A stretch of DNA of 64,000 nucleotides, taken from contig NZ_FZNY01000002.1 of NCBI RefSeq assembly GCF_900188275.1, positions 558,001 to 622,000 of the forward strand, written 5' to 3'. This document shows positions 33,637 through 52,244 of this stretch, piece by piece. The position numbers and the translations under genes were made by a program. The notes beneath the pieces were generated by a model, which saw nothing but the letters and a program-made list of their open reading frames with translations, searched no databases and was not told the DNA's origin. Numbering within the stretch: the stretch's first letter is position 1; each line of letters opens with the position of its first letter. This stretch comes from Dokdonia pacifica (GTDB lineage Bacteria > Bacteroidota > Bacteroidia > Flavobacteriales > Flavobacteriaceae).

Positions 33637-34476
33637 TTATATACTTACAGATATACTCTGTGTAACTTCTCGTATCGATCGATTATCTATTTGTATAGGA
33701 TTAAAATCCCGTAGACAGATATAATCGGGTCTATTTTTTTCTTTTCTATCTTCTGGTAAATTGGACGTTACATTGTAAGTCATGATCGCTGTATTTCTAT
33801 CGTATGGAGAAATATTTGCATTAGAACCATGATATACATTTGGATGAAAAAAGATAGCGGTGCCTATTTTTCCAATACCAGGTTCAATGCCATCTTGATC
33901 TACCATTTTTTTAATCAATTCATTTTTAATGGTAAATTTTAAATCACCATTTAAAGAATTTTCTAGTGCTATCGTCCCTTCAGTTAAGTGTTCTTTGTGT
34001 TGAAAATCTGCAATACCAGTAGTATGCGATCTAGGAATAAACATCAAAGGTCCCTGTGCATGATCTGTATCTTGTAGTAATACCATAACAGAAAGCATAT
34101 TTGATTCCTTTACACCATCATCTATATGCCAAAATGGATAATCTTGATGCCACTCCCATATACCACCTCCAAAGGCCTTTTTGTTATTAAGCTTATACTG
34201 ATAGAGATAAATTGAAGGATCATTTAATAATTGTTGTGTTGGTACAACTAAACGTTCTTGTTTATATAACCAATCAAACTCTTCTCTAATAGTTTGTGGT
34301 GCAAATACAGAGCGTATAGCTCCATTTTCTTCTCTTATAATATTGGGCATGGGTTTATCATCTATCTGATGAACCCCATCTCGTATGCCTTGTACCTCAT
34401 CTTCTGTAAATAAACCATCAACGATGAGGAATCCATTTTCGTGATAATGATCTATTTGTGCTGTTGTTAATTTCAT
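33637..34476 (-). CDS. Phytanoyl-CoA dioxygenase family (EctD-like) Fe(II)/2-oxoglutarate hydroxylase
   Basis: 279 aa. The facial metal triad is visible: His and Asp in WEWHQDYPFWHIDDG and distal His in FFHPNVYHGSNAN. An Arg for 2-oxoglutarate follows (YDRNTAIMTYN). The layout and the block LLQDTDHAQGPLMFIPRSH match ectoine-hydroxylase-like PhyH proteins, which often hydroxylate free or carrier-bound amino acids in peptide pathways. It is encoded next to the phosphopantetheinyl transferase and NRPS genes on the same strand, so a tailoring step on an amino-acid unit is the best inference. Confidence 0.85.
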   Translation of the reverse strand: MKLTTAQIDHYHENGFLIVDGLFTEDEVQGIRDGVHQIDDKPMPNIIREENGAIRSVFAPQTIREEFDWLYKQERLVVPTQQLLNDPSIYLYQYKLNNKKAFGGGIWEWHQDYPFWHIDDGVKESNMLSVMVLLQDTDHAQGPLMFIPRSHTTGIADFQHKEHLTEGTIALENSLNGDLKFTIKNELIKKMVDQDGIEPGIGKIGTAIFFHPNVYHGSNANISPYDRNTAIMTYNVTSNLPEDRKEKNRPDYICLRDFNPIQIDNRSIREVTQSISVSI

Positions 34477-34504: not shown

Positions 34505-35227
34505 CTATTGATACCTCCATGAGGTTATACCAGACACATTTCCTTTTACAGAAACAGCACCGATGTAATCTTTTCTAGGTTCAATAGCATGTAACATCCA
34601 TTTTTCTTTTTCTTTTTTATCCCATTTTGTATCGATAAGTGTTGCTTCTTTAGTAGAATCTAAACTCACTACAAATTGATCTAGCGGAAATGCGAGTCCG
34701 CTACCCATTGCTTTTATAAATGCTTCCTTTCGAGTCCAGCAATTGTAAAAAGCTTGAGTATGATAGGTATGATCTAAAGCAAACAGAGAAGTCACCTCTT
34801 CTTCAGAGAAAAAGAGCTTTGCAATCTTTTTAACATCTACTTTTCTCTTGGTATACTCTACATCTATTCCTATGGTATGTTCTTGAATAAATCCTAAGAG
34901 TATGGTATCTCCAGAATGCGAAATATTAAATTGAAGCGCTCCATAATTTTGCACAAAGGGTTTCCCGTTGTAACCAAACTGAAACTCAATTTGATCTGGA
35001 GCACTCTTTAAATAATTTCCTAATAATAATCTCAAAACCCCTCTTGCTATAATAAAACAAGAGCGATCTTTTTGGAACCTGTATTTCAAAGCACGCGCTC
35101 TCTCAGATGCATCAAGAAGATTCCAATAGGTAGCTAACCTATCTTCATGCGCATTTTTACACACAGACCAAATATGTAATTGATCTGATGATAATGAGAG
35201 GTGTTGATTTGAAAAATTAGTCCACAT
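34505..35227 (-). CDS. 4'-phosphopantetheinyl transferase, Sfp type
   Basis: 240 aa. Converts apo carrier domains to holo form by attaching phosphopantetheine to Ser. Signature motifs are present: the magnesium-binding TIGIDVEYTKR and the late motif NCWTRKEAFIKAMGSGL, preceded by FNISHSGD. It is 5 bases downstream of the C-T-TE gene, so it is made with the NRPS it must activate. Full length. Confidence 0.95.
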   Translation of the reverse strand: MWTNFSNQHLSLSSDQLHIWSVCKNAHEDRLATYWNLLDASERARALKYRFQKDRSCFIIARGVLRLLLGNYLKSAPDQIEFQFGYNGKPFVQNYGALQFNISHSGDTILLGFIQEHTIGIDVEYTKRKVDVKKIAKLFFSEEEVTSLFALDHTYHTQAFYNCWTRKEAFIKAMGSGLAFPLDQFVVSLDSTKEATLIDTKWDKKEKEKWMLHAIEPRKDYIGAVSVKGNVSGITSWRYQ

Positions 35228-35232
35228 ACGAT

Positions 35233-37659
35233 TTAGCTTTCTATAATTACTTGATCCATCGCTTGCGCTGTATGTAATACATCTGGATCTTCAAAAAATG
35301 TAGCATGCTGTCCTTTTGTAGTCTTCACAATAATTTCTCCAAGTACCAGAGGTTTCCATGAGCGTACAATCTCATGATTGTAATGATCGTCTCCTTTTTC
35401 TGTAAGAATTAGCGATACATTATCAATTTTGGAATCCCATGTATATGCATTAAACAAATCCACCAGATGTAATCGCATCTTTTCTGTATTCTTTTCGGCT
35501 TCATTTCCAAAAAGCCTTACGCGTATAGGTTTTAAATAAAACATTACACGAAATCCAATCATAGCATATAAAGCTTTGAAAGGGTTTGAGAAAAATCGCT
35601 TTAAAAAGGCAGTTACTCTAATAAGTAATCGTTCTTTATCAAATAATAATCTATGTTCTGCAATGGTATCTGCAACAATAAGATGTGTTTCTCTTCCTTT
35701 AGATTTTAAGTAGCTTACCATTTCTAATCCTACTGCTGTACTAAAACAATAAACAACAATATTAAGCGTCCCTTCGGGTTGTACTAGACTTATCTCATCG
35801 GCATAATCTCTTGCCATGTCTTCAATACTTTGATGCATATTATCTTCTCCAAAAATCCCAACAGGCTGTAATGCATATACAGGTCTTTGAATATCTATTG
35901 CATCTGCTAAACTCTTATAAAAAAATACATGACCTCCCCCCGCATGAATACAAAATAAAGGTGTCTTATCTCCTTTTGTTTTGATAGGCACTAAGTATTT
36001 CCATGCAACAGTATCTGTATTTCCTTTGGTAGTAATCACTTCGGCTAATGCCTGGATGGTAGGTGATTCTAATAATGTTGTGGGAGGTAGTTTTACACCT
36101 AATTTCTCTTCTATAAGTGCAAACATTTTGACAGATAACAATGATTTTCCACCTAAATGGAAAAAGCTATCGGTGATACTTATATAATTTATTCCAAAGA
36201 GTTGTTCCCAGATTTCAACCAATGTTAATTCTACTTTATTTCGAGGAGCGATATAGGTAGTTTCTTTCTTTTCAAAATCCTCTTGAACTTGTAAATCATC
36301 TAGTATACGCTTTCGCGAAAGCGCACTAGGAATGATTGGAATTTGTTGTAAGGCGTCATTTACAGAAGTGTCTTTATTTAAAAGTAGCGTGACCGCTATT
36401 GTAGGAATCACATTAAGAAACCATTCTATAATAGCTGTGGGAATCACAGTTGTATTCACTAATAAATCATACTGAATACAATCTTCTATTTTGAAAATTA
36501 CCGTCAAAGGATAGGTAGTTGTAATACCGCTTTCAAAACTACTCACTGTAAGATCTCCACTAGAAATATTTTCCCATGGGAAGTTTTCAAAAACAAATAA
36601 ATTATCAAATAATGGTTGATCTTCAGGTACATTAGCCCAAGAAACAATCTCATCTATCTTACAATATTCATAGTTACGCGCTCCTTGTTGCTGAGATTGT
36701 AACTGCTGTAAACAAAACTGAAATGAGTGAGAGATATCAAATAGTGTTCGTACGGGAAGTACATTGGCAAACATTCCTGCCATACGTTCTATATTCGGAA
36801 AAGGAATAGAACGGCCAGAAACAGTGGTTCCAAAAGTTACATCTTTCGTATTGAAACATTTTGCAAGTGCCAATGACCAAATACCTTGAAACAACGTATT
36901 AAGAGTAACTTTATAATGTTTGGCTAGACTTTTTAAATCTTCAGATGTCTGTACCGTAAACTTATTTGTATAGGACGTAGGTGTTTTACCTAGCGACTGT
37001 GCTGTATTTTGTTGAAATAAAGATGCTTTTGTAAAGTCTTCAAAAGTAGTTTTCCAGAAATCTGCAGCGCCATTTAATGTATTGGTCTTTAACCAATTTC
37101 TATACGATGTATAGTTTGGAATTGTAGGTAATTGTGGTGATACTCCTGAAGATAAACTTGCATAATATGCAAATGCATCTTTTAAAATAATAGTAGATGA
37201 CCATCCATCTAAAAGTAAATGATGACATTCCCACACAAAGTAATAACTATCTGATTCTTTTTGAATAACACTTATTCTGGAAAGAGGGTTTTCTTCAAAG
37301 GCAACTCCTAGATCTTTTCGTTCTTTTTTATAAGCTTCTAGTGATCTATTTTGTTCTGTAGCAGGTTGATCTCTCCAATCTAAAAAAGACCATTGAATTT
37401 CCTTTTCAGGTCGTACTAAAAGTACAGGACGCTCTACATTTTTCCAGTGTACAGAAGTACGCATTACCTCATGACGTTTTGAAACTGCTTTCCAAGCTTG
37501 CTTAAATAATGCAATATCTAACGGTCCATCTATCACACACTGAACAGTCAAAAAGCCTTGATCTTCGCCTTCTGTTAAGTGATGGAAAAGTAACCCCTGT
37601 TGCATTGCATTAAGCGGATAGATCGCATCTATTTTAGGTTTTTTGATCGTTGTTTCCAT
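35233..37659 (-). CDS. NRPS termination protein: condensation - carrier - thioesterase, no adenylation domain
   Basis: 808 aa. The condensation domain (about 10-450) has HHLLLDGWSS at 146-155. The carrier domain (about 475-545) has FFHLGGKSLL with Ser506. The alpha/beta thioesterase is at about 565-808. No adenylation domain is present, so the carrier must be loaded in trans, or the module may receive a nucleophile differently. The thioesterase elbow reads VVYCFSTAV (Ser640), with Cys and Ala in place of the two Gly of GxSxG. His in GQHATFFEDPDV is present. It follows an epimerisation domain, so the condensation domain should accept a D-residue. A palindrome copy sits in the C-T linker (36308-36323). 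Confidence 0.9.
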   Translation of the reverse strand: METTIKKPKIDAIYPLNAMQQGLLFHHLTEGEDQGFLTVQCVIDGPLDIALFKQAWKAVSKRHEVMRTSVHWKNVERPVLLVRPEKEIQWSFLDWRDQPATEQNRSLEAYKKERKDLGVAFEENPLSRISVIQKESDSYYFVWECHHLLLDGWSSTIILKDAFAYYASLSSGVSPQLPTIPNYTSYRNWLKTNTLNGAADFWKTTFEDFTKASLFQQNTAQSLGKTPTSYTNKFTVQTSEDLKSLAKHYKVTLNTLFQGIWSLALAKCFNTKDVTFGTTVSGRSIPFPNIERMAGMFANVLPVRTLFDISHSFQFCLQQLQSQQQGARNYEYCKIDEIVSWANVPEDQPLFDNLFVFENFPWENISSGDLTVSSFESGITTTYPLTVIFKIEDCIQYDLLVNTTVIPTAIIEWFLNVIPTIAVTLLLNKDTSVNDALQQIPIIPSALSRKRILDDLQVQEDFEKKETTYIAPRNKVELTLVEIWEQLFGINYISITDSFFHLGGKSLLSVKMFALIEEKLGVKLPPTTLLESPTIQALAEVITTKGNTDTVAWKYLVPIKTKGDKTPLFCIHAGGGHVFFYKSLADAIDIQRPVYALQPVGIFGEDNMHQSIEDMARDYADEISLVQPEGTLNIVVYCFSTAVGLEMVSYLKSKGRETHLIVADTIAEHRLLFDKERLLIRVTAFLKRFFSNPFKALYAMIGFRVMFYLKPIRVRLFGNEAEKNTEKMRLHLVDLFNAYTWDSKIDNVSLILTEKGDDHYNHEIVRSWKPLVLGEIIVKTTKGQHATFFEDPDVLHTAQAMDQVIIES
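36308..36323. repeat. Palindrome CGCTTTCGCGAAAGCG (copy 6, in coding sequence)
   Basis: In the linker between condensation and carrier domains of the C-T-TE protein, read as ALSRKR on the minus strand. Confidence 0.9.
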
Positions 37660-37698: not shown

Positions 37699-39879
37699 TT
37701 ATTCTAAAAAACCGAGTAAACTATCTAAATCATCTTGACTTATTTCTGCATCAGAAAAATCAGAAGGCGTATATCCTCCATTCTCTATTTGATTGCAGTA
37801 CGCCCCAATCTCTTGAATACGTTCTTTAAAGTCGTTTACTAATTGTGTGATTGTTTCATCTGCATGTACATTGCTTCCATAACTAAAGGTGCCGTGTAAT
37901 TGCTCATCTATTATCTGTACATTAATTTCTAATTTGTAATGGCGCTCACTTCGTAAGTCTCTAAGATTTTCTGAAAGCGTACTGACGGTAATTCCATGAT
38001 CTGCAACAGAAGTGGTTTTCGTTCCTAAGAAGTTAAATACGATTTCAGGGTTTCCAATAGCTCCAAAGGCATTTTTGATATAGCGTAATGCGCCATATCC
38101 TATCCCTCCGTTGGGAATGCTTCTCATTTTTTCTTTTACAGAAACGATTTGACTCTCTAAGTCATGGTAGGATGTATGCACAAACTTCATAGGGAAATAA
38201 GAGGTAAACCATCCTACGGTCTTAGATACATCTAGCGCCGAATTTGAAGTTTCTCTTCCATGTCTCTCAAAACCAATAGCCACTTCATCTTGATTACTCC
38301 AAGTACTAATTGTAGCTATGAAAGCTGTAATAAGAAGTTCTTCTATCTTTGTATTATACGCTTGATTTGCTTCCTGTAGCTCTTTGGTAAGTTCTTTATC
38401 AAGTGTAAAATGCAGTTGTGTGATATCTTTTTCTTCAATGACTTCGATAGCTTCTTTATCATAGGGTAAAGCACCCACTGGGATTATCTGAGAGGCCCAA
38501 AAATCAAACTCATCATTTGCTATCGTGTCTGCATACCTATGAAGATATTCACTCCATGATTTAATAGAGCTCGTTTTAGGTTCAGATGTTATAGTTCCTA
38601 CTTGTTGTAATGCATTTATAAAATCGTCTGTAATAATCTGCCAAGACACGGCGTCTACTACCAAGTGATGTGCAATAAGTATACAGAAATTAGTAGTTGA
38701 TACTCCTGTATTAAAGTAGATACACTTAAATAAAGATCCTTCAGATAAGATAAATGCATCTTGAACACCTTGTATATGTTGGGATGCTACTTGCTCATAC
38801 TCTTCTGGGGCAATCCCTGTACAATCTACATACTCTAATGCAAAAATTTGTTCTGGTTTCCCTATATCTTGTATCCATCTATCTTCTTCAAATCTAAATC
38901 GTGATCGTAATGCATCATGTTGGATAATCATATAATCGCAAACTGCTTGCAATTGTTTTTCAGAAAAAGTAGCTAGTCTGTCTAACCAAACGCCTTGATT
39001 CCAATACTGGGGCGCATTTTTATGATCCTCAAAAAACCACTGTTGTATTGGAGATAAGGGTACAATACCTTGTAATAGTTCCCTTTTAAATTCTTTTGTT
39101 TCCGCTTTCGCGAAAAGCGATAACTCAGCAATTGTCTGATGTTCAAAGATGTGATTAGATTCAAGAATAATCCCTTCTTTTCTAGCCTTTGCAATGATCT
39201 GGATACTTAAGATAGAATCTCCTCCTATTTCAAAAAAGTTATCATTTGTATGTATAGGAGAAAAACCAAGAGTCTCTTCCCAGATACCTACAAGTTTTTC
39301 TTCCACAGAGATGTCATGAGTTTGAGTAGTCGCTGCAAAAAGACTTAATTCAGCAATGGTTTGATGTTCAAACAGTGCATTGGATGCTAAAACAATTCCC
39401 TCTTTTCTTGCTTTTGCTATAATTTGAATACTTAAAATAGAATCCCCTCCTATTTCAAAAAAGTTATCATTTGTATGTATAGGGGAAAAACCAAGGGTCT
39501 CTTCCCAAATGGTCACTAACTGTTGTTCTAGTGTATGAGAAGTACTTTGGGAAGTATGAGATGTAGATTCTTTGGTTGTTGTTGTTGTTGTTGTAAGTAA
39601 CTGTTTTCTATCAATTTTTCCATTGGGTAATACGGGCATTTGAGCCACAGGCACAAATTGTGATGGTACCATATAATCTGGTAATTTACCATGAAGTTCT
39701 TGTCTTAATTGATCTACCGAAAACTGCGCACTACCTTGTACATAAGCAACAATACGCTTACGACCAGAAGTAGTTGTGTTTTTTGCTTGTATCGCAATGG
39801 CTTCCTTTACTTTAAGCAATAGTAATTGTTTCCTTTTAGGACTTAATGCTTCTATTCTATCTTCTATATTTCCTCCCAT
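37699..39879 (-). CDS. NRPS protein: C-terminal adenylation subdomain (A9-A10) - carrier - carrier - epimerisation
   Basis: About 726 aa from the ATG at 39879 (overlapping the methyltransferase stop as TAATG; the frame is open a little further upstream). It opens with only the last part of an adenylation domain: RIVAYVQG, A9 LPDYMVPSQF (near residue 66) and A10 LPNGKIDRKQL with the catalytic Lys (near 87). Two almost identical carrier domains follow (FFEIGGDSILSIQ at Ser147 and Ser222). An epimerisation domain comes last, with HHLVVDAVSW, VGWFTSYFP and FNFLG. The missing A1-A8 core is encoded at 40686-43640. A poly-Thr linker precedes the first carrier; a palindrome lies between carrier 2 and E. 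Confidence 0.9.
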   Translation of the reverse strand: MGGNIEDRIEALSPKRKQLLLLKVKEAIAIQAKNTTTSGRKRIVAYVQGSAQFSVDQLRQELHGKLPDYMVPSQFVPVAQMPVLPNGKIDRKQLLTTTTTTTKESTSHTSQSTSHTLEQQLVTIWEETLGFSPIHTNDNFFEIGGDSILSIQIIAKARKEGIVLASNALFEHQTIAELSLFAATTQTHDISVEEKLVGIWEETLGFSPIHTNDNFFEIGGDSILSIQIIAKARKEGIILESNHIFEHQTIAELSLFAKAETKEFKRELLQGIVPLSPIQQWFFEDHKNAPQYWNQGVWLDRLATFSEKQLQAVCDYMIIQHDALRSRFRFEEDRWIQDIGKPEQIFALEYVDCTGIAPEEYEQVASQHIQGVQDAFILSEGSLFKCIYFNTGVSTTNFCILIAHHLVVDAVSWQIITDDFINALQQVGTITSEPKTSSIKSWSEYLHRYADTIANDEFDFWASQIIPVGALPYDKEAIEVIEEKDITQLHFTLDKELTKELQEANQAYNTKIEELLITAFIATISTWSNQDEVAIGFERHGRETSNSALDVSKTVGWFTSYFPMKFVHTSYHDLESQIVSVKEKMRSIPNGGIGYGALRYIKNAFGAIGNPEIVFNFLGTKTTSVADHGITVSTLSENLRDLRSERHYKLEINVQIIDEQLHGTFSYGSNVHADETITQLVNDFKERIQEIGAYCNQIENGGYTPSDFSDAEISQDDLDSLLGFLE
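39103..39119. repeat. Palindrome with one extra A, CGCTTTCGCGAAAAGCG (copy 7, in coding sequence)
   Basis: In the linker between the second carrier and the epimerisation domain. Confidence 0.8.
39573..39594. repeat. Trinucleotide repeat (GTT)n coding poly-Thr
   Basis: Six or more GTT units on the plus strand; on the coding strand they read as a Thr run in the A-stub/carrier linker. In-frame slippage would only change linker length. Confidence 0.75.
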
Positions 39880-40676
39880 TATTTTATTGCTTTTACAACT
39901 ACAATTGAATTTGCCCACCAGATATCTTTTACATCTTCTGGCATTGTCAAAGCAACTGTCTGAATACTAAATGAAGAAAAATGCTTCAATAATAAACGTT
40001 GGTGCTCTCTACTTAAAGAGTCTATCTCATTAGAGAAATAGGTGAAAGATCCGCCAGGATTAAGATGACTAGAAGCATACGGAAAGAAATGCTCTGCAAA
40101 TGTGATACTCTCCTGAACATACTTCATATACTCCTCTTCATTTAATGGATATGTATGAAAAAATATTCCATCAAATAATCCAATATCATCTATTCTATCT
40201 TGCCATAATCCTTGTACCATTCGGATATCATTTCCTTGATATTTTTCTTTCCATTCTTGAAAATAATCATTGATGACAGCTTCATTACACTCTATAATTG
40301 TGTGAGATTTTACATCATACGCCTGAATCATATCTGAAGAGATGCCTCTTCCAAAACCAATTTCTAGAATATCACCCTGAGTTTCACAAATCACATCAGC
40401 CATCGCTTGCATGAGTGGTATTTGCCAATCTTCCATAATCTCCTGATCAGAAAGCTTTGTATGTGTTCTATCATGTATTTCTCTAATCTCCGTAGCGACA
40501 TTTCCAGGCACAAAGTGTTTTGCCTGCTCATCTATCGCTTCTATATCTGCCGAGAACTCTTTGAGCGCTCTATTTATCACTGCCGATCGCTGAATAGCTC
40601 TAGGTGGATTAATAAAATTCTCCTCCTTTATCGTAAGTTGTACTTCGTATCCTTCTGATCTTCTAACTCTTCGCAT
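39879..40676 (-). CDS. GAMT-like SAM-dependent methyltransferase encoded between the two parts of an adenylation domain
   Basis: 265 aa. The SAM motif is DILEIGFGRGISSDMIQ, followed by HTIIECNEAV, VQGLWQDRI, FDGIFFHTYPLNEEEY and LNPGGSFTYFSNEID. This order closely matches guanidinoacetate N-methyltransferases (VLEVGFG, WIIECND, GLWEDV, YDTYPLSEE). The acidic residues that hold the guanidino group in GAMT appear replaced (W-E-T-P by WQIP, and Y-D-T-Y-P by FHTYP), so the substrate is probably different. About 60 extra N-terminal residues precede the fold. It begins three codons after the in-frame stop of the upstream NRPS gene, and its stop overlaps the next NRPS start. Confidence 0.85.
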   Translation of the reverse strand: MRRVRRSEGYEVQLTIKEENFINPPRAIQRSAVINRALKEFSADIEAIDEQAKHFVPGNVATEIREIHDRTHTKLSDQEIMEDWQIPLMQAMADVICETQGDILEIGFGRGISSDMIQAYDVKSHTIIECNEAVINDYFQEWKEKYQGNDIRMVQGLWQDRIDDIGLFDGIFFHTYPLNEEEYMKYVQESITFAEHFFPYASSHLNPGGSFTYFSNEIDSLSREHQRLLLKHFSSFSIQTVALTMPEDVKDIWWANSIVVVKAIK

Positions 40677-40685
40677 GATCTCTTT

Positions 40686-43640
40686 TTAATCTAATGTATC
40701 TAGTACTACCTCTACAGCTTCTTCTTGAAGCGTCTCTATAGAAGTGAGTATTTGTTGTACTTCTTTATTTGAAATGTGTTTCGTAAGGGTATTGGTAAGT
40801 TGTGTAGCATTTAAAAATGCTAGGTTTTCCCAATCAATTGTGTCTGTTTCATTCTGAACCATCACTACCGCTTGTTCTACATGAGGCGCACTATGTATAT
40901 GTTGCGCAATCTCATCCAGTTCTATTCTATACCCTCTTACTTTTACTTGTTGGTCTTTTCTTCCTAAAAATTCAATGGTACCATCGGCTCTATATTTGGC
41001 AATATCACCGGTTTTATAAAGACGTTTTGTAACATCTGTATCAAATGGATGTTGTATAAATGCTTGTGCAGTTTTCTCAGGATCATTTAAATATCCAGAT
41101 GCAAGCCCTAAACCACCTATATATAATTCGCCAGGAGTACCATAAGGAACTCGCTTTGCATCATCATTAAGAATGTATACTTGTATATTTTTAATAGGGC
41201 TCCCAATAGGAATACTACTCGCATTACTATCGCTAGGTTGCAATTGATGTGCAATACACCATACGGTACTTTCTGTAGGACCATATTCATTATACAGTTT
41301 TACTTGTGGTATCGTATCAAAATGCTGTGCTGCCAATTGTGTTGTGCAGGCTTCTCCTGCTACAATAACCGTATCTAATGATGCGAGTTTTTTTACATCT
41401 CCATAGTTGATCAAATGCGTATACAATGAAGGAAGCATTAATGTATGTGTTACTTTATTTGCTTCTATGGTTTGTACCAGACGATCTATATCTTGTTCTA
41501 GATGTTTTTCTGAAATGACTAAGGTTCCTCCTGTACATAAACTCCAGAATATTCCTGTTTTTGAACTGTCAAAAGAAACCGAAGACATCACTAAAAATGA
41601 TGTAGGATCATATCCATAAAAATCGGTTCTAGACAATGTAGAATTGATGATATTCTTATGTGTGATAGGAACTCCTTTAGGTTTTCCTGTACTTCCAGAG
41701 GTATAAATTACATAGGCAAGGTCACTATTTGATACTTGTGGTAAGGTAACCTCAGCAACATCTGTTTCAAAAATAGCTTCGATGGTAAGCGTTTGAACGG
41801 GTACATTCTCAAAACTTGATGCGATATGTTTTTGGGTGATAACCGCTTTCGCGAAAGCGTTATTAAGAATATAAGAAATACGTTCTGACGGGTATTCAGG
41901 ATCGAGCGGAAGATAGGCAGCGCCTGCCTTAAGAATCCCTAATAATCCAATAATCATATCTTCTGAACGATCGATACATAGTCCTACTATATCATTCTTT
42001 TGGATGCCTCGTTCTAAAAGTTGATACGCAATGCGAGTTGCTCGTGTGTTTAACTCTTTGTAGGTGATTTTTTTATCTTTAAAAGTAATGGCTATCGCTT
42101 CTGGATGTTGTAATGCTTGTGCTGTAATAAGTTCGTGAATGCCTTGCTCAGCAATCTGATATTCTTGTACAGGAGCTTCTAGAGCAGTATAAAACTGTGT
42201 TTCTTGTGCTGTTTGTAATTCGATATCTGAAAGAATTACATCTGGGTTTTTAATCACCTTCGTAAGAATTCCTTCAAAATGCGCATGCATACGTTCAATA
42301 GTTGTTGCATCAAATAGATCTGTTGCATACTCCATTAATGACATAAGTGAACCTTCGTCTTCAGATATATATAGCGTTAGATCAAACTTTGCAACACCTG
42401 CATCATAAGGTTCATAGGTGATTTTTATAGCATCGCCTAACGTAGGGGTTTCTGGAACTTTATGATATAAAAACATCACTTGAAAGAAAGGATGTACACT
42501 TAAAGACCGTGTTGGTTTTAATGTATTTACTAAGGTGTCAAAAGAAATATCTTTATTAGAAAATGCATCTAAGGTGGTTTTCTTTACTTCTTTTACCAAT
42601 GCGCTAAACGAAGCTTGTTTTTCAACCTGTGTTCGCAAGACTAACGTATCATTAAAAAATCCAATAAGGTTTTCTAAACGTGTTTGATCCCTTTTAGTAA
42701 TAGGAGTTCCAACAATAATATCTTCTTGACCTGCATATTTCTGTAACAATACATAGTAGATACTAAGCATGGTTACATACGGGGTTGCTTCTAGCTTTTT
42801 ACAGAGATCAAAAAAGTCTTTCGATATTTGATCACTATATACTTGCTTGTGAAATGTCCCTTTGTACGAAGGCTGTGCTTTTTTGGGATAATCTGTTGGT
42901 AGATTTAATGTGGATAATTCTCCAGAAAGTTTTTGTTTCCAGTAATCTAGATGCTCGTTATTAATTTCTTGATTCCCTTGCCAATGTGCATAACTTGCGT
43001 ATTGTATTTCTGGTTTTTCAATTTGTGGTGTTACCCCATTTACAAGTTTTGCATAATTTGAAGCGAGTTCTTTTCTAAAAACCTTCATAGACCATTTATC
43101 CGTAATGATATGGTGCATGACGATTAAAAATAAAAAGTCGTTCTCTGCTACCTTTATAAGGGTAGATTGTAATAAGGTTTCATCAGAAAGGTAAAATGTA
43201 TGACTCGCATTTTTACGTATGAGCGCATCTGCTTTTTGAGAAGCTATCTCATATGCTGTATTACTGAAATCATAGTATGAAAATACCGAATTAGAAGTAG
43301 GTGCTGTATGTACCGTAGGAATCCCCTCATCTACCCGAAAGTTGGATCGCAAGATATCATGTTTATCTTCAATGAGTCGTATACTCTTTTCAAATAATGC
43401 TACCTGAACATCTCCTTGTAATTTATAGAGTTCTGAATAATTATAAAAAGGATTGTCTGGAAATAATTGCTGTAAAAACCATAGTCGTTTTTGTTCTCGA
43501 GATAAGGGTACAGTTACTGCTTCTGGTATTTTTGTAATCTCAGTAGTATCTGTAGACTTCTTATCACGATTTTTCCATCTAGATAACAAAGACGCTTTGG
43601 AAGAGAGTGCACTTTCTTTTTTCACAATAGTTGTATTCAT
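40686..43640 (-). CDS. NRPS protein: condensation - adenylation core (A1-A8), truncated before A9
   Basis: 984 aa. The condensation domain (about 45-480) has HHIITDKWS at 176-184. The adenylation core (about 500-930) has A3 YTSGSTGKPKG, A5 NEYGPTEST, A7 YKTGD and A8 GRKDQQVKVRGYRIELDEI (893-911). It then ends after a 70-residue tail; A9, A10 and any carrier are missing and resume in the gene at 37699-39879. Pocket residues read by alignment to GrsA are roughly D-S-T-L-I-A-E-V-W, which resembles some aromatic-type codes; treat as a guess. A palindrome is inserted between A2 and A3 (AFAKA). It lies 8 bases after the HupE gene. Confidence 0.92.
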   Translation of the reverse strand: MNTTIVKKESALSSKASLLSRWKNRDKKSTDTTEITKIPEAVTVPLSREQKRLWFLQQLFPDNPFYNYSELYKLQGDVQVALFEKSIRLIEDKHDILRSNFRVDEGIPTVHTAPTSNSVFSYYDFSNTAYEIASQKADALIRKNASHTFYLSDETLLQSTLIKVAENDFLFLIVMHHIITDKWSMKVFRKELASNYAKLVNGVTPQIEKPEIQYASYAHWQGNQEINNEHLDYWKQKLSGELSTLNLPTDYPKKAQPSYKGTFHKQVYSDQISKDFFDLCKKLEATPYVTMLSIYYVLLQKYAGQEDIIVGTPITKRDQTRLENLIGFFNDTLVLRTQVEKQASFSALVKEVKKTTLDAFSNKDISFDTLVNTLKPTRSLSVHPFFQVMFLYHKVPETPTLGDAIKITYEPYDAGVAKFDLTLYISEDEGSLMSLMEYATDLFDATTIERMHAHFEGILTKVIKNPDVILSDIELQTAQETQFYTALEAPVQEYQIAEQGIHELITAQALQHPEAIAITFKDKKITYKELNTRATRIAYQLLERGIQKNDIVGLCIDRSEDMIIGLLGILKAGAAYLPLDPEYPSERISYILNNAFAKAVITQKHIASSFENVPVQTLTIEAIFETDVAEVTLPQVSNSDLAYVIYTSGSTGKPKGVPITHKNIINSTLSRTDFYGYDPTSFLVMSSVSFDSSKTGIFWSLCTGGTLVISEKHLEQDIDRLVQTIEANKVTHTLMLPSLYTHLINYGDVKKLASLDTVIVAGEACTTQLAAQHFDTIPQVKLYNEYGPTESTVWCIAHQLQPSDSNASSIPIGSPIKNIQVYILNDDAKRVPYGTPGELYIGGLGLASGYLNDPEKTAQAFIQHPFDTDVTKRLYKTGDIAKYRADGTIEFLGRKDQQVKVRGYRIELDEIAQHIHSAPHVEQAVVMVQNETDTIDWENLAFLNATQLTNTLTKHISNKEVQQILTSIETLQEEAVEVVLDTLD
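41844..41859. repeat. Palindrome CGCTTTCGCGAAAGCG (copy 8, in coding sequence)
   Basis: Inside the adenylation domain between motifs A2 and A3, read as NAFAKAV. Confidence 0.9.
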
Positions 43641-43648
43641 TTATGTTT

Positions 43649-44878
43649 TTATTTCAACCCTAATTTGACAGCAATTTCATATAACCAATAGGTAATAGTA
43701 TCTTCTACTCCAAGGTTTACATCAAACACTCTTTCTATAATCCAATAGATAGAGGCAAGAATCAAAAAGATAGATCCTCCAATAAGTATTTTTGGGTATG
43801 ATTTTCTATTTCTAATAAGAAAAAGTATAGGGAAGATCAGAGCGATAATAACGAGTTGTCCTATTTCTACACCAATGTTAAATCCTAGTAAAGAATACAC
43901 TAAAAACTCATCCTTAAGACCTATATCTCCTAATACACTAGCAAATCCAAAACCGTGGAATAAGCCAAAAACAAAAGCAATAACCCAATCTCTTCCTTTA
44001 AAAATAGGCTTGATATTATGAAATGCTGCAAGTCCAATGGAAAAGGCGATAATAGATTCTACGATCCATCCTGGCAAACTAATAATTTGTAATGCGGCAA
44101 GACTTAATGTAATGGTATGTGCAATTGTAAAGAATGTTACAATCTTTATGATATATGAAAAAGCTGGTTTAAAACGAGTAACAGGTTTCCAACTTTTAAG
44201 AGGTGATAGTTTCTTATCTCGTCTACGCCATACAACAGCTGGCAATATAAGAGCGATGAGAAAGAAAATATGATCTGTTCCTATCCATATATGCCAAACA
44301 CCTTGTTTGATCATAGCAACAAACCCTTTCCAAACAGAAACCTTTGTTAAGTCTAAGGTATCTGTAGTGCTACTTGGTGTAAAGTATAAAGAGATATTAG
44401 ACTCATTATTAATAACACCAGCTTTCCAATTATATTCCATTGTTAGAAAGCCTCTATGTGTAGGAGATTCTTCAAATGCAATATCATAGTTAACATCCAT
44501 AGTATCTGGAAGAGGGTCTACATTATCAAGGTCAAAAAACACCTGTATGTAATCTCCCAGTCCTGTGGACAAAACATCAATACCTTTAAAGGTTACATTA
44601 TGGATTCCTGCAGATGAAGAAAAACTTGAATGCTGCAGTATATATGCTCTCAATTCTTGATAGTGAGGCTCTATAGCCTCCAAACTATTTCCTTCTTTAA
44701 GAAGTCCCCAATTAAAAATTTTATTTAAGTCTTCTGCTTGTATTTCAAATCGACCTTCTATACCATCAGATTCATATATCCTAAGAAATATAAAACCTTG
44801 TTCTGGAGCATGCGCATTTGCAAACAGAGAATTCAGTAGTATAAAAGCAAAAAGAAAACGGGTGATTATTTTTTTCAT
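43649..44878 (-). CDS. HupE/UreJ-2 family membrane protein (putative metal permease)
   Basis: 409 aa. Signal peptide (FLFAFILLNSLFANAHA), a periplasmic domain of about 170 residues, then seven or so membrane segments. The family motifs are GVWHIWIGTDHIFFLIALIL, FTIAHTITLSLA and FGLFHGFGFASVLGDIGL, with conserved His/Asp that probably bind divalent metal (HupE/UreJ relatives handle nickel or cobalt). It is the first gene of the minus array, only 8 bases before the NRPS gene, so metal uptake and peptide synthesis are co-transcribed. The metal is unknown. Confidence 0.85.
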   Translation of the reverse strand: MKKIITRFLFAFILLNSLFANAHAPEQGFIFLRIYESDGIEGRFEIQAEDLNKIFNWGLLKEGNSLEAIEPHYQELRAYILQHSSFSSSAGIHNVTFKGIDVLSTGLGDYIQVFFDLDNVDPLPDTMDVNYDIAFEESPTHRGFLTMEYNWKAGVINNESNISLYFTPSSTTDTLDLTKVSVWKGFVAMIKQGVWHIWIGTDHIFFLIALILPAVVWRRRDKKLSPLKSWKPVTRFKPAFSYIIKIVTFFTIAHTITLSLAALQIISLPGWIVESIIAFSIGLAAFHNIKPIFKGRDWVIAFVFGLFHGFGFASVLGDIGLKDEFLVYSLLGFNIGVEIGQLVIIALIFPILFLIRNRKSYPKILIGGSIFLILASIYWIIERVFDVNLGVEDTITYWLYEIAVKLGLK

Positions 44879-45474: not shown

Positions 45475-46626
45475 TTGGATTTTTCTTGGACAGAAGAACA
45501 GCTACAATTTAAGAATGAAGTTATCAGTTTTGCAGAAACAAAATTGAATGATTCACATCTTGTCAATGATCATAAATTAGAATTTATGAGGAAGAATTGG
45601 CAACTATGTGCAGACTTCGGCATGCTTAGTTTATCTGTTCCAAAACAATATGGTACTCATACTAAAGACATAGATATTCTATCTGCAATATTAGCCATGG
45701 AAGGTTTGGGATATGGATGTAGGGACAACGGATTACCCTTTGCAATGAATGCGCAAATGTGGACGGTACAGCTTCCTATTGCTCAATTTGGAACAGAAAC
45801 GCAAAAGGAAACATTCCTTCCCAAACTTACTTCTGGAGAATGGATTGCTTGTCATGCCCTTACAGAACCAGAAGCAGGCTCTGATGTTTTTAATATGCAA
45901 ACTACAGCTACAAAAGTAGAAGGCGGATATATACTTAATGGAAAGAAACACCTTATTACATTAGGCCCTGTTTGTGATATCGCATTAGTATTTGCAGTTA
46001 CAAACCCAACGTTAGGAAAATGGGGACTTTCTGTTTTTATAGTAGAAAAGGGAACTAAAGGATTTGAAACAAGTCTTAATAAAGCAAAAATGGGACTTCG
46101 TACTGTCCCTATAGGCGACCTTACATTTACCGATTGCTTTGTGAAAGAAGAAAATAGATTAGGATCTGAAGGTGCAGGATGGAGTATTACAAATCACTCC
46201 TTAGAACTAGATCGTTGTAGCGTACATGCAAGTCAGATAGGTGCTATGGAGCGTCAACTAGAAGCTTCTATAGCTTATGTAAAGCAGCGTAAGCAGTTTG
46301 GAAAATCTGTGGGGCAATTTCAATCGGTTTCTAATAGGATTGCCGATATGAAATTACGACTAGAAACATCACGTCTCTTATTATATAAAGTAGCTTGGTT
46401 AAAAAGCCAAGGGAAATCGGCGATGCTAGAATCGGCGATGCTCAAATTACAAATTAGTGAAAGCTTTGTTGCTTCAAGTCTGGATACTATTCGTAATCAT
46501 GGTGGGTATGGGTACTTAACCGAAAATGAAGTAGAACGGGATTTACGAGATGCCGTCGGAGGTGTGATTTATGCAGGAACCTCAGATATTCAACGAAATA
46601 TAATTGCTAAAACTATTGGGTTATAA
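45475..46626 (+). CDS. Acyl-CoA dehydrogenase-family flavoenzyme, prolyl-carrier-protein dehydrogenase-like
   Basis: 383 aa. It uses a TTG start (45475-45477) behind an AAGGA-like site; this gives MDFSWTEEQLQF, the normal start of the family, and the next Met is too far in. It contains ALTEPEAGSDVFNMQTTA (flavin-binding block), RKQFGKSVGQFQSVSNRIAD and YAGTSDIQRNIIAKTIGL. These blocks closely match PigA/RedW/PltE/AnaB-type dehydrogenases, which oxidise prolyl-S-carrier to a pyrrole or dehydroproline thioester. The next two genes encode the matching ligase and carrier. Substrate is inferred. Confidence 0.85.
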   Translation: MDFSWTEEQLQFKNEVISFAETKLNDSHLVNDHKLEFMRKNWQLCADFGMLSLSVPKQYGTHTKDIDILSAILAMEGLGYGCRDNGLPFAMNAQMWTVQLPIAQFGTETQKETFLPKLTSGEWIACHALTEPEAGSDVFNMQTTATKVEGGYILNGKKHLITLGPVCDIALVFAVTNPTLGKWGLSVFIVEKGTKGFETSLNKAKMGLRTVPIGDLTFTDCFVKEENRLGSEGAGWSITNHSLELDRCSVHASQIGAMERQLEASIAYVKQRKQFGKSVGQFQSVSNRIADMKLRLETSRLLLYKVAWLKSQGKSAMLESAMLKLQISESFVASSLDTIRNHGGYGYLTENEVERDLRDAVGGVIYAGTSDIQRNIIAKTIGL

Positions 46627-46640
46627 GCTTTCGCGAAAGC
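46627..46640. repeat. Palindrome GCTTTCGCGAAAGC (copy 9, intergenic)
   Basis: In the 30-base gap between the dehydrogenase and the ligase, right after the stop codon. Confidence 0.9.
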
Positions 46641-46656
46641 GTACTAAAAAACAGAT

Positions 46657-48222
46657 ATGTTAGTATACACACTTCCACATATTATAGAAAATGCCGCACA
46701 GCAGCAGCCTGATAAAATTGCATTTAAATACCTAAGTGATACCCTTACTTTTTCGGAGTTACATGTAAAATCTAATCAGCTAGCACAGTATTTAAAAAAC
46801 AAAGGGATTCAAAAAGGTGACCGAATTGGAATATACATGCCTAGATGTCTGGAAACTACTATTGCAATATATGGCATCTTAAAAGCTGGAGCTGTTTATG
46901 TTCCTTTAGATCCTTTTGCACCTATAACTCGAACAGAATTTGTATGCAAAGATTGTGATATCAAGCATATTATAAGTATTCCGCAACAGACACGTAAACT
47001 AAAGAAGTTTTCAGGTGATACAGGTCTGGTATCTATTATAGGAATTCATCAAGAGCTATCTGTAGCAACCGCTATTTCTTGGGAAACTATTTTTGAAGTT
47101 TCGATAGTTCCATCTGCACCCGTAAATATTCTTGGAGATGATCTGGCTTATATTTTATATACATCGGGCTCTACAGGAACGCCAAAAGGAATTATGCATA
47201 CGCATACCAGTGCATTGGCTTTTGTGAAGCTTGCAGCAACTATGTATGAGATGCAAGATGCTATTTATGGTATGCATGCGCCTTTACATTTTGATCCATC
47301 TGTACAAGGGTATTATGCAGCACCTTATGCATTGGCTACAACAATTATAGTATCAGATGCGCATACAAAAATGCCATCTAGTCTTGCTGAGCTTATAGAA
47401 AAAGAAAAAATAACGATTTGGTTTTCTGTACCATTAGCATTGATACAAATGCTTTCACATGGAAATCTTGATCATAGAGATATGTCATCTTTAAAATGGG
47501 TGTTATTCTCAGGAGAAGTATTTGCTACAAAGCATTTACAAGCATTAATGAAGCGTTGGCCTTTTGCAAAATTCAGCAATATATATGGGCCTACAGAGGC
47601 CAACCAATGTACTTATTACCATTTAGAAACACCTCCTCTTACGGATGTTCCTATTCCCATAGGATATATCTGGGGAGATACTGCTTTTAAAATTATAGAC
47701 CCACAAGACCAAGAGGTCAATGATGGAGATATCGGAGAGCTTGTTATACGTACTGCAACCATGATGAAGGGATATTGGAATAACCCCGAATTAACACAAG
47801 CTTCTTTTTACAAAGAGGAAACTATTGTTGGCGCACCACATATTTATTACAGAACAGGAGATCAAGTTTGTCTAGATAAAGAAGGTAGACTCCTGTTTTT
47901 AGGAAGAAAAGATCATCAGGTAAAAATAAGAGGATATAGAATTGAATTAGGAGAGATAGAAAGTGTGCTTTCTTCTTATTCTGGCATTGAAGAAGCAGTG
48001 ACCATTGTCATTAATGAAGAGATAACAGCCCAGAAAAAACTTATAGCTATTCTTTTACCTTCTCATCACACTAGTATAGACATCGCGGCATTAAAGGCGT
48101 ATTGCCAGCAGAATTTACCTGCGTATGCAATACCCGATAGCATAGAAATTTATAATGAGTTTCCAAGAACTGCTTCAGGAAAAATAAATCGGAAAGAGAT
48201 TGAAAAACGAATAACATCATAA
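46657..48222 (+). CDS. Free-standing adenylation enzyme, amino acid (probably proline):carrier ligase
   Basis: 521 aa, complete. It has A3 YTSGSTGTPKGIM, A5 NIYGPTEANQCTYY, A7 YRTGD, A8 GRKDHQVKIRGYRIELGEIE and A10 TASGKINRKEI. The blocks WVLFSGEVFATKHLQALMKR and YGPTEANQCTYY are typical of PltF/RedM/AnaC-type ligases that load proline on a separate carrier. The A4 region reads HFDPSVQGYY rather than the usual FDLS form, so the amino acid is not certain. Followed after one base by the carrier gene. Confidence 0.88.
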   Translation: MLVYTLPHIIENAAQQQPDKIAFKYLSDTLTFSELHVKSNQLAQYLKNKGIQKGDRIGIYMPRCLETTIAIYGILKAGAVYVPLDPFAPITRTEFVCKDCDIKHIISIPQQTRKLKKFSGDTGLVSIIGIHQELSVATAISWETIFEVSIVPSAPVNILGDDLAYILYTSGSTGTPKGIMHTHTSALAFVKLAATMYEMQDAIYGMHAPLHFDPSVQGYYAAPYALATTIIVSDAHTKMPSSLAELIEKEKITIWFSVPLALIQMLSHGNLDHRDMSSLKWVLFSGEVFATKHLQALMKRWPFAKFSNIYGPTEANQCTYYHLETPPLTDVPIPIGYIWGDTAFKIIDPQDQEVNDGDIGELVIRTATMMKGYWNNPELTQASFYKEETIVGAPHIYYRTGDQVCLDKEGRLLFLGRKDHQVKIRGYRIELGEIESVLSSYSGIEEAVTIVINEEITAQKKLIAILLPSHHTSIDIAALKAYCQQNLPAYAIPDSIEIYNEFPRTASGKINRKEIEKRITS

Positions 48223-48223
48223 A

Positions 48224-48460
48224 ATGCAGGAGAAAATTATAAAATACATAGAAGAAGAATTAGCTAATGAAGAGTTAGATGGCGGATTAGAGGCTACAGA
48301 AGATTTATTAGGTAGTGGCATTTTAGATTCATTAGGGATGATGAAACTCATCGCATTCCTAGAAGATGAGTTTGGGTGTAAAGTATTACCAGAAGAAATG
48401 GTTATTGAAAATTTTATGACCGTAGCACACGTAAATGATTATCTAGTAAGTAAACAGTAA
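48224..48460 (+). CDS. Free-standing peptidyl/acyl carrier protein (PltL/RedO/AnaD-like)
   Basis: 78 aa, four-helix carrier with the phosphopantetheine Ser in GSGILDSLGMMKLIAFLEDE. The end ENFMTVAHVNDYLVSK matches carriers that pair with proline ligases and prolyl dehydrogenases. It starts one base after the ligase stop and ends 13 bases before the C-A-T NRPS, so it likely presents the oxidised starter to that condensation domain. Confidence 0.92.
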   Translation: MQEKIIKYIEEELANEELDGGLEATEDLLGSGILDSLGMMKLIAFLEDEFGCKVLPEEMVIENFMTVAHVNDYLVSKQ

Positions 48461-48473: not shown

Positions 48474-51400
48474 ATGAAAAACAACTACGAGCCTTTAACA
48501 CAAAGTCAATCATTATTATGGATAGGACAGGAAATGAATCCTGAATCTCCTATGTATAATATGGTGATGACCTATGAACTAAAGGTTTCAATCTCTGTAA
48601 TGCACTTTCAAATGGCTTTTCAAAAGCTGATACAAAAATATGATGCATTACGATCTGTTTTTCAGATAAACGAAGGAATACCTACACAAGTTTTTTTACC
48701 TGATCATACGTATGAACTAGAAATTATTGATTTTTCTAATGAAGAAGATCCAGAAAACTCTTATAACCTTTGGCAACAAAATAGAATTACAAAACGATTT
48801 GATATAGCTGCTTGTCTAGTAGATAGTGTACTTATAAAACTACACGATTCTCATTATATCTGGTATATAAATCAGCATCATTTAATTACTGATGCTTGGA
48901 GTAATAGCCTCCTTTTTTCTAAGATTGCGCACTATTATAAAGCGTATAAAAATGAAGTGTTGTTACCAGCAATTCAAGAAGAATTCTCTTATAAAACCTA
49001 TATCCAGCAAGAACGATTAGAAAGAACACTCACAAAAAATGATACTGCAAAAGAGTATTGGGCACAAAAAATAAAGACCAGTCCTCCCACTCCAAACTTA
49101 TATTTCAATCCCCCAATTAGTCTAGGCACTGAATCCACTCGATCGTATATAAATTTAGGTCTTGAACGATCTAAAAAACTAAGAGCATTAGCCAACGAAA
49201 GAGGGATTCGTGTCTGGACCGAACACTTATCGTTATATAATATATTCTTAACCACCCTTTTTGCTTATTTATATAGAGTAAGTGGACAAGAACAATTAAC
49301 TATAGGTTCACCAACTCATAATAGAACTTCCAAAAAAATTAAAGAAACCGTAGGATTTTTTGTAGAAGTATTTCCATTGTTTGCTACGATAGATAAAGAA
49401 GAAACTTTTCTTTCCTTATTACAAAAAGTACAAGTAGAGAGTAATCACTTCCTAAAACATGCAAAACCAGGGATTTCTACATCAGATTTGCATAGAAGTT
49501 TTCATGTATTGTTCAATTACATCCATGCCGCAAACACAGATTTTGATGGAGTGCCAGTTCGTTCAGAATGGGTACATTCAGGGCATCATGATCCAAGACA
49601 TCAAATACGCTTACACGTACACGATTTACAAAACACAGGAGAAATTCAACTGTATTTTGATCTCAACAATCATGCATTTGATACTCAAAAACAAGCATTA
49701 ATTCCACAGCATTTCGTAATGCTCTTGGATGCATTTATTGCTCATAAAGAACAAGCAATAGCTCAACCCCCTTTAGTTAGCACGCATGAATATGAGAATA
49801 TGTTTGCTGCTTTACATCAACATACAACTCCTACAGCTACCTATGATACTATCATAACTCAGATAGAACAGCAAGTAACAAAAACGCCTTTTGACACGAG
49901 TGTTGTTTTCGAAAAAGATACGATTACCTATCAAGAACTCAATGCAAAAGCAAATCAGTTTGCGCATTATTTATTAGCACAAGATATAGGTGTTGGGTCA
50001 CAAGTTGCTATATGGCTTAAGCGCTCTCCAGAATATATTATAAGTGTACTTGCTATTCTTAAAACTGGAGCAACGTATATCTCAATTCCATACAATTTCC
50101 CTCAAGACAGGGTTGCGTATATAATAGCAGATAGCAAAGCATCATTGTTAATTTGGCAGGAAGAAGAACAACTTACAGATTTCAAAGAATCAAAATTAAA
50201 AACGCTCTGTATAGACACATTAGAAACAACCATACTTTCTCAATACAAGCATACAAATCCTGAGATTGCTATTCCAAAAGAAACGATCGCTTTCTTAATA
50301 TATACATCAGGATCTACAGGAAATCCTAAGGGTGTTGAAATTACACATGAAGCCTTAAGCAATTATATTAAGTGGACCGAAAATGCATATATAAAATCAC
50401 ATGAACTAGAGCAACCATCTATCCCATTATTTACAACTGTTGGATTTGATATTACTGCAAATTCTGTATTTCTACCGCTCATTTGCGGAGGAAACATTCA
50501 TGTCTATCAAGAACAGGATACCGAAGTAGATCTTTCGATTACAGATGTGATAGAAGATAATAGTGTTTCTTTTATCAAATTAACTCCTGCACATGTACAC
50601 TTTTTAAAAGGCAAAGACCTTTCTCAAAGTACTATCCAGGTAATTGTAGTAACCGGTGATGAATTCAAAACGGCTTTAGGGGTTGATATTGTCAACACTT
50701 TCAATAAACCAGTACATATATACAATGAGTATGGACCTTCAGAAGCAACTATAGGATGCATCTATCATAAATTCAATCCTGAAGAAGATGTAGCCGCTAG
50801 TGTACCTATCGGGTTGCCTATACATAATATGCAAGTATACGTATTAGATCGTTTTCTTAACCCTGTACCGCAAGGCGTTATAGGAGAACTATATCTAGGA
50901 GGAACAGGACTCTCAAGTGGCTATTGGAATAAACCTGAACTTACCCAACGTAAATTTATAAAAAGCCCATTTCAATCTACAGATACTATATATCGTACAG
51001 AAGACCTTGTGAGAGTAAATGATCAAGGGATTATTGAGTTTCTAGGACGTACCGATTTTCAAGTAAAAATAAACGGGTATCGGATTGAACTGGGAGAAAT
51101 AGAAGCCCATCTTTTATCGTATACTGGTATTACTACAAGTACGGTAATAGTCTCAAAAAATGAAGATGATTTTAAGAGTCTTGCGGCCTATTTTTCTGCT
51201 ACTACCCCTATTGATTTAAAGGATTTACAATTGTTTCTCAATACAAAATTACCCAAATACATGGTGCCTGTGTATTACAAGCAATTAGAGACCCTGCCGC
51301 TTTCACCCAATGGAAAAGTAGATAGAAAAGCGCTAGAAATTATAGAAACAAAAACCATACAGAGTAATACTTCGTATGTATCCCCAAGAAACGAAATAGA

Positions 51401-51685: not shown

Positions 51686-52153
51686 ATGAAAACTACAGTA
51701 TCAAAAGGCTTAAAGCCATTCGTCTTTCACCTCATCATAGTCGCCATGAGCGTATTGTATGTGTTTGGTCCTGTACATGTAGAAGTAAATAAACTTTTAC
51801 ATACCATCAGTCATGGTTTAGAAATGCCTGATTATATTCTTGATCATCAAAATACTTCAGGAAGTCATACCAATACTCACAAAAGTGAAACACATGAAAA
51901 TATTGCTGTATTCCATGATCATAAAGTCATCACCCTGTTAGATAAAATACTAGAAGGAGCTGACCAAAATAGTGACGATTCTGATATACAAACTATTATT
52001 TTCAAAATAGATAAACATATAACTCAATACACAGGTAATCCTGAAGAAACCTTTTCCATAGTAGCTTTAGAAGCAACACAACCCATTTTAGAACAGAAAA
52101 AAAAGGTTTGCAAAGGATATTTAAGAGGATTCAGGAAACCTCCAAAAGCATAA
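51686..52153 (+). CDS. His-rich membrane-anchored protein, hypothetical
   Basis: 155 aa. It has an N-terminal hydrophobic segment (about 10-28, FVFHLIIVAMSVLYVFGP), then a His-rich stretch: KLLHTISHGLEMPDYILDHQ, then SGSHTNTHKSETHENIAVFH. The basic C-terminus has one Cys. The His cluster on the periplasmic side suggests metal binding. It lies directly ahead of a TonB-dependent receptor whose plug also has a HAHG motif, in a locus that begins with a HupE permease. I do not recognise the family. Confidence 0.65.
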   Translation: MKTTVSKGLKPFVFHLIIVAMSVLYVFGPVHVEVNKLLHTISHGLEMPDYILDHQNTSGSHTNTHKSETHENIAVFHDHKVITLLDKILEGADQNSDDSDIQTIIFKIDKHITQYTGNPEETFSIVALEATQPILEQKKKVCKGYLRGFRKPPKA

Positions 52154-52244
52154 TTACGTATACACATTTAGAAAGCTTAAAGTATCTGAATACATAATTG
52201 AGGATACACTCATTTACATATTTAAAAACACTACTCAAGCTAGA

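Follow-up and report, generated by a model that had tools for sequence, protein, structure and literature searches.

An adenylation domain encoded on separate open reading frames around a free GAMT-like methyltransferase in Dokdonia pacifica and its relatives

Adenylation (A) domains are usually treated as indivisible in the annotation and engineering of nonribosomal peptide synthetases (NRPSs), and one split example, from the corallorazine pathway, has been shown in vitro. In that work, Crz1.2 alone gave no glycine turnover, and turnover was almost full when it was mixed 1:1 with Crz2 (PMC11342130). Interrupted A domains, such as KtzH and McyA (PMC11355689), carry a catalytic domain between motifs A8 and A9 of a single polypeptide. 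A literature search, mostly outside subscription journals, found no report of a split A domain besides the corallorazine paper. Here we describe an A domain from Dokdonia pacifica whose two halves are encoded on separate open reading frames (ORFs) with a methyltransferase gene between them. It lies at 37699..43640, on the minus strand, of the window, by which we mean the whole stretch of 64,000 nucleotides that was analysed. The original prediction gave these coordinates exactly, and its description of an a8–a9 interrupted A-domain layout spread over three polypeptides is supported by what follows. From sequence comparison, a predicted structure and the corallorazine analogy we consider it highly probable that this is a real A domain made as two polypeptides and completed in trans, with a helical clamp at the joint and the methyltransferase as an independent docking partner.

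Protein 1 (40686..43640, minus strand, 984 aa; ORF, Pfam and NCBIfam) comprises a Condensation (C) domain at residues 43–482 (42195..43514) and the AMP-binding core of the A domain at residues 507–851 (41088..42122), both recognized by Pfam, the latter with the specificity pattern FDSS...VAGE...NEYGPTExTVW. The NCBIfam A-domain profile TIGR01733 matches residues 526–926. The original prediction had the protein ending after A8; it is indeed C-A up to A8, but the end is not at A8 itself, since a tail of about 50 residues (936–984; 40689..40835) precedes the TAA stop (40686..40688). Protein 2 is a methyltransferase of 265 aa on an ORF of its own (39879..40676, minus strand), in keeping with its prediction as a stand-alone enzyme. 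Protein 3 (37699..39879, minus strand, 726 aa counted from the ATG that overlaps the methyltransferase stop) was expected to start with A9-A10 and to continue with two thiolation (T) domains and an epimerization (E) domain. This was borne out, with the addition of a linker of about 40 residues ahead of the A9 part (residues 1–40; 39760..39879). The A9-A10 part (39595..39759) runs from LPDYMVP to NGKIDR and includes the A10 lysine. It is followed by the first T domain (39343..39525), the second T domain (39115..39306, limits from sequence reading) and the condensation-type E domain (37741..39072; Pfam, and NCBIfam TIGR01720); on this protein Pfam reports two PP-binding stretches and the Condensation-type match. 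Whole adenylating-enzyme profiles of NCBIfam reach protein 3 only by their ends, as when positions 424–502 of 505 of the DltA profile PRK04813 match residues 37–110. The tandem T domains (39115..39525) are near copies of each other (80% over 55 residues), and the T-T arrangement was also seen in eight relatives.

Both junctions read as predicted. At the first, the TAA at 40688–40686 is followed by AAA GAG ATC and then by the methyltransferase ATG at 40676, all in one frame; at the second, the sequence TAATG holds the methyltransferase stop (39881–39879) and the ATG of protein 3 (from 39879), which lies in a different frame. By gene order a catalytic domain thus stands between A8 and A9 as in an interrupted A domain, and stops at both junctions break what would otherwise be a single polypeptide. 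The A domain is cut between A8 and A9 over separate ORFs with its motifs intact in both halves.

The search for the same split in relatives gave a clear answer. A scan of genome contigs for relatives of the methyltransferase yielded 58 loci, the nearest being another Dokdonia (94%). Three separate, consecutive ORFs encoding protein 1, a near full-length methyltransferase and an A9-A10 protein were found in 41 of them, distributed over seven phyla (Bacteroidota, Rhodothermota, Chloroflexota, Pseudomonadota, Acidobacteriota, Planctomycetota and Verrucomicrobiota); in some of the 41, for example L028, L040 and L059, a contig end cuts protein 1 or protein 3. The whole set divides as 41 three-ORF loci + 3 + 1 + 1 + 4 + 2 + 6. 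The methyltransferase frame is disturbed or shortened in three draft or metagenome loci (L051, L056 and L058), the pieces of L065 lie apart from each other, and the A9-A10 part of L070 is absent at a contig end. In four loci (L067, L071, L073 and L074) the first two ORFs are fused, and wherever A9-A10 is visible, in two of the four, it occupies a separate ORF; L071 is cut by a contig end and no A9-A10 part was found near the fusion in L074. The methyltransferase relatives of L075 and L076 lie beside complete A domains, and in L054, L064 and L080–L083 no split partner was seen. No single ORF for all three parts was found in the 58 loci with two peptide patterns taken from close relatives, which a diverged form could escape and which leave loci at contig ends unjudgeable. 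Likewise, among the three matches (own included) obtained at E ≤ 1e-20 from 395 genomes of the phylum there was no long open frame fusing all parts.

The motifs of the divided domain are retained throughout. The A10 lysine motif is present in 48/48 A9-A10 parts, and the code letters E-V-W in all 44 rows of the split module in which a script found the A5 motif, the window included (of 53 rows counted, the pattern failed on L047, L053, L057, L068, L073 and L078, and L064, L075 and L076 matched other A domains). Comparison of the window with L026 gave ratios of nonsynonymous to synonymous substitution rates (dN/dS) of 0.095 for protein 1, 0.16 for its tail, 0.054 for the methyltransferase, 0.086 for the linker and 0.17 for the A9-A10 part, so that all the pieces are under purifying selection. 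Assembly error is excluded by the presence of this three-ORF arrangement in independent genomes from many genera, and with dN/dS of 0.05–0.17 against L026 a pseudogene was rejected as well. The three-piece split is thereby confirmed.

The original prediction allowed that the first stop might sometimes be read through, and a fused interrupted A domain could in principle arise by read-through at the first junction combined with frameshifting at the second. The in-frame methyltransferase ATG after the TAA of the window speaks for this, as do the fusions at the first junction in L067, L071, L073 and L074 and two loci (L085 and L087) in which a single in-frame TAA parts halves that have no methyltransferase between them. 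A programmed event would be expected to show a conserved frame across the stop, however, and none was found. Only 13 of 44 relatives (the 41 three-ORF loci plus L051, L058 and L070) have the first junction in frame, the nearest Dokdonia, L026, not being one of them, and the stop codon at this junction varies (TAA 29, TGA 12, TAG 3). The second junction is in frame in 4/41 loci and changes frame in the other 37; in 30/41 there is an overlap of 1 or 4 bases between the methyltransferase stop and the protein 3 start. L084, the sister of L085, is likewise out of frame. In L065 (2490–12820) protein 1 lies 4.5 kb from the methyltransferase and the A9-A10 protein, with a C-T-TE gene (TE, thioesterase) and another gene, on the opposite strand, in between. 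Since frames and stops vary and the pieces of L065 lie so far apart, read-through cannot be the rule, and we regard a fused chain made in this way as barely credible.

The break itself is accompanied by extra sequence. From A8 to the stop of protein 1 there are 69–100 residues (median 90) in 46 three-piece rows, 89 in a locus with a methyltransferase remnant and 80–94 in six split rows without a methyltransferase, whereas from A8 to the next strand only 40–53 residues are found in 13/14 one-piece rows (the fourteenth, L104, was missed by the pattern and is alike by eye). In L090, where the halves are joined in one ORF, this distance is 142 residues. In the 45/48 rows measured, the strand of the A9-A10 protein is preceded by 19–49 residues (median 42). 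The tail is therefore a feature of all split forms measured and absent from one-piece relatives, and from the comparison of these lengths some 90 extra residues accompany the break. By eye, the linker resembles the LSPxxRxLL stretch that opens other NRPS subunits, for example protein 1 of L065. The break sits in a loop of the small subdomain that connects two strands, AVVMVQNE in protein 1 and KRIVAYV in protein 3.

A structural model was made from L073, in which the fusion of the N-terminal A part (AN) with the methyltransferase was followed, with an in-frame TAG read as Gln, by the A9-A10 part. It has a mean predicted local distance difference test score (pLDDT) of 84.5 and a predicted template modelling score (pTM) of 0.62, and in it the tail and the linker are each predicted to form two helices. 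Alignment to 4d4i with VIA-align superimposed 460 residues (chain length 481) at 2.2 Å over the model range 1–827, and the best Foldseek match was 5wmm, the solved structure of an A domain with a methylation domain inserted in it, which we take to be from TioS. The model thus shows two predicted halves that are compatible with one A-domain fold.

Protein 2 (METHYLTRANSFERASE) has no Pfam or NCBIfam match at E 0.001, and its relationship to guanidinoacetate N-methyltransferase (GAMT) was recognized by phmmer (E 1.4e-20) and by its predicted fold (pLDDT 88), for which the five best PDB matches found by Foldseek are all GAMT, near 1e-12, the next class following near 1e-7. It bears the motif GDILEIGFGRG, and the S-adenosylmethionine (SAM) motif positions G-L-E-G-G-G are invariant in 22/22 aligned rows. 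The likeness to GAMT in fold and sequence stops at the active site. GAMT YDTYPL aligns with FHTYPL, so that His174, invariant in 22/22 rows of one alignment and 11/11 of another, takes the place of Asp134. In GAMT, Asp134 has a catalytic role at the substrate (PMC12471008). The counterpart of the GAMT W-E-T-P stretch is W-Q-I-P, or W-L-I-P in 2/11 rows, Gln or Leu thus standing where GAMT has Glu. That Glu has a substrate role in GAMT. The replacement of the catalytic Asp led us to reject an identification as GAMT proper. A further difference from GAMT is an N-terminal extension of about 60 residues (residues 1–60; 40497..40676), predicted to form a beta hairpin and a long helix of 26 residues, which is the most constrained part of the methyltransferase in comparison with L026 (dN/dS 0.012). 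In L076 (Micromonospora, 8272–10759) a methyltransferase of the same family adjoins a complete stand-alone A domain and, at the position of the split-family His, has Asp (FFDTYP) like GAMT. A search of the plasmid collection yielded no relative of the methyltransferase.

Domain and enzyme also occur apart from each other. A sample of 397 genomes of the family was searched with the methyltransferase and then with the start of protein 3. The methyltransferase was found in 12/397 (own included), full length in 11 and from residue 35 onward in genome G303; besides these there were one remnant and two weak matches judged to be unrelated. For the start of protein 3, the 22 regions examined came from the top of the match list, and one of them (L105) is another NRPS. 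Six Flavobacteriaceae genomes (L084–L089) have the halves on two ORFs, in long open frames, with no methyltransferase between them; one genome (L090) has them joined in a single ORF of 1461 aa that retains both tail and linker; and at least 14 genomes (L091–L104) have an ordinary one-piece A domain in the orthologous module. None of these 21 genomes was among the methyltransferase matches in the search of the 397. A Rhodohalobacter shows the opposite condition: its methyltransferase (65% identical) is a lone gene behind module 2, and a C-A-T-E protein with the same code pattern is encoded on the opposite strand as a single chain of 1505 aa. Because of the six enzyme-free splits and Rhodohalobacter, the split needs no methyltransferase and the methyltransferase needs no split, and both conditions exist.

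The remnant, in genome G246 (L025), is an ORF of 87 aa between open neighbour ORFs and consists of the first 52–56 and the last 35 residues of the methyltransferase. It is 59% identical to L045 over these parts (60% for protein 1), with a dN/dS of 0.20, a figure that includes the time before the deletion. Together with the strong constraint on the N-terminal extension, its retention would be explained if the methyltransferase served mainly as a structural bridge between the halves and methylation were secondary. We think this improbable: the six split loci have nothing of the enzyme between their halves, Rhodohalobacter retains the gene despite its one-piece A domain, the SAM-motif positions and His174 are invariant, and part of the constraint on the remnant may date from before its deletion.

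We infer the following assembly from these observations. Protein 1 would provide the large core together with the A8 strand-helix-strand, which makes up the first half of the small subdomain; protein 3 would add the second half (a strand, a helix, A9 and the A10 lysine), to which its T domains are already attached. As the break lies in a beta-hairpin loop of the small subdomain, the halves could close by pairing one strand from each protein, and the helical tail of about 50 residues and the helical linker of about 40 would probably act together as a clamp. The GAMT-fold methyltransferase may dock near the joint through its N-terminal extension and methylate the T-bound residue, most likely on nitrogen. 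The expectation of the original prediction that the parts must reassemble holds insofar as a complete domain needs the parts to meet. Alternatively the A domain might be dead, the A part of protein 1 and the A9-A10 stub being leftovers and the T domains being loaded in trans by another A domain. The next subunit downstream is C-T-TE without an A domain (35233..37659, minus strand; Pfam), which means that trans loading or skipping happens in this pathway anyway. The code letters and the A10 motif are nevertheless retained across phyla, the dN/dS of protein 1 is about 0.1, orthologous one-piece domains hold the same halves together, and the corallorazine proteins (PMC11342130) provide a precedent for function. 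A dead domain is accordingly a very improbable account.

Several points weigh against assembly in trans as proposed here. A different A domain might load the T domains of protein 3. Tail and linker have dN/dS of 0.29–0.45 in comparison with L027 and L028, with dS near or above 1 in places. The L073 model has a pTM of only 0.62 and stretches under pLDDT 50 that include residues 467–487; being one chain by construction, with a stop read as a residue, it cannot show separate chains meeting. The G246 remnant hints at a role of part of the methyltransferase in bridging the halves, yet six genomes manage without it. Among those six, read-through may occur in L085 and L087, with their single in-frame TAA, and L087 offers only a TTG start.

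The direction of change was addressed with trees. A quick tree of protein 1 was computed from 74 rows with module 2 as outgroup, omitting L064, L075, L076, rows of fewer than 330 residues and loci without a match; L105, chosen as a second outgroup, fell inside and may be a distant member. Three-piece rows of several phyla branch first, the remnant locus L025 is the sister of the three-piece L045, and the long branches L072 and L074 came together. One-piece rows require six state changes on this tree, four of them forced by starred branches, and split rows without the enzyme require three. Approximately unbiased (AU) tests on 57 rows reject a single clade for the one-piece rows (p 8.9e-64), for the split rows without the enzyme (p 8.4e-106) and for all enzyme-free rows (p 9.6e-6); for these tests 17 rows were dropped, LG+G4 was used without a mixture model, and the groups were defined after the first tree. 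In the tree of the A9-A10-T part, which lacks L084 and L085 because the cutting rule failed to catch them, every one-piece A9-A10 part falls among those of the split family, and L097, L099 and L104 form a group separated from the rows that are closest to them in protein 1. Recombination near the break was therefore involved, and it is uncertain how often the halves were rejoined independently. The methyltransferase tree unites three of the four fused forms.

The conflict over L097, L099 and L104 would also suit a history in which the ancestral state in Flavobacteriaceae is the one-piece A domain and recombination or transfer brought in the split forms, the more so as the root of the protein 1 tree depends on a distant outgroup. 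Such a history appears unlikely, given that one-piece rows are nested within three-piece rows on the protein 1 trees, that the AU tests reject one clade for the one-piece rows and for all rows without a methyltransferase, and that L090 still carries both tail and linker in its single ORF. We favour, with some reserve, the opposite direction: the methyltransferase would have been removed several times, leaving a working two-piece domain, and once cut to an 87-residue bridge, and the halves would have been rejoined more than once, in an A domain of several phyla that is natively assembled from separate proteins by helical clamps at a beta-hairpin break. If true, this is a natural record of an NRPS catalytic domain splitting and healing.

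The remaining genes of the cluster lie on both sides. On the minus strand, the C-T-TE gene is followed by a phosphopantetheinyl transferase (34505..35227; Pfam and NCBIfam) and a PhyH-type dioxygenase (33637..34476) whose best NCBIfam match, ectoine hydroxylase, is below the cut-off. On the plus strand, 45475..48460 encodes an acyl-CoA dehydrogenase, a stand-alone adenylating ligase and, by eye, a carrier-like protein of 78 aa. The best PDB match of the ligase is the multidomain linear gramicidin synthase, and its best stand-alone match is the prolyl ligase 6o6e. A dehydrogenase, a prolyl-type ligase and a carrier would presumably fit a pyrrole-type starter. The cluster is flanked (43649..44878 and 51686..54609) by a HupE/UreJ-family membrane protein (PF13795, 2.8e-46), a 155-aa protein for which Pfam gave no match and a TonB-dependent receptor; by eye, the G246 cluster has similar neighbours, a HupE-like ORF and one of ~159 aa. 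With HupE-like and TonB-dependent neighbours, the product may bind or move metal.

Module 2 (C-A-T; 48474..51629, plus strand) has an uninterrupted A domain in the window genome. In L025 (1713–5855, minus strand) the A domain of this module carries an insert of about 340 residues at A8-A9, which resembles WbuX, an N-acetyl sugar amidotransferase (TIGR03573: 1.5e-37 in L025 and 1.8e-42 in L075, both below the cut-off). By gap length alone, an insert is indicated in module 2 of L049, L052, L055, L057, L061, L068, L070, L071, L073 and L078; module 2 of the window is without the WbuX-like insert. A literature search for such a WbuX-like insert in an A domain found no paper.

This family shows that the split of an A domain is old and widespread, that the joint can be the site of a free methyltransferase, and that gain and loss can affect the domain, the enzyme and the joint independently. 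The helices of tail and linker are candidate natural clamps for A domains built from interchangeable halves, and annotation by domain profiles will make such split modules appear broken.

Among described systems, interrupted A-M-A domains share the a8–a9 position of the methyltransferase, but they are single polypeptides, and none of the 58 loci showed that form; the system of the window works like an interrupted A domain, yet not as a single chain. Crz1/Crz2 are more alike: their A domain is split between A8 and A9 on two ORFs, with a methyltransferase at the break and A9-A10 joined to T on the next ORF, the methyltransferase being a type I N-methyltransferase fused behind A8, so that there are two pieces (PMC11342130). 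In the window it is a third protein with the GAMT fold, and fusion to the A8 half, absent there and from the 41 three-ORF loci, is seen in L067, L071, L073 and L074, with L067 and L073 having the two-piece layout of Crz but with a GAMT-like enzyme. The family of the window further differs from Crz, compared here by description and not by sequence, in having relatives that are split without any methyltransferase. Corallorazine is thus the closest precedent; what is new is the division into three pieces, the GAMT-like enzyme as a free protein and the series of losses and rejoinings.

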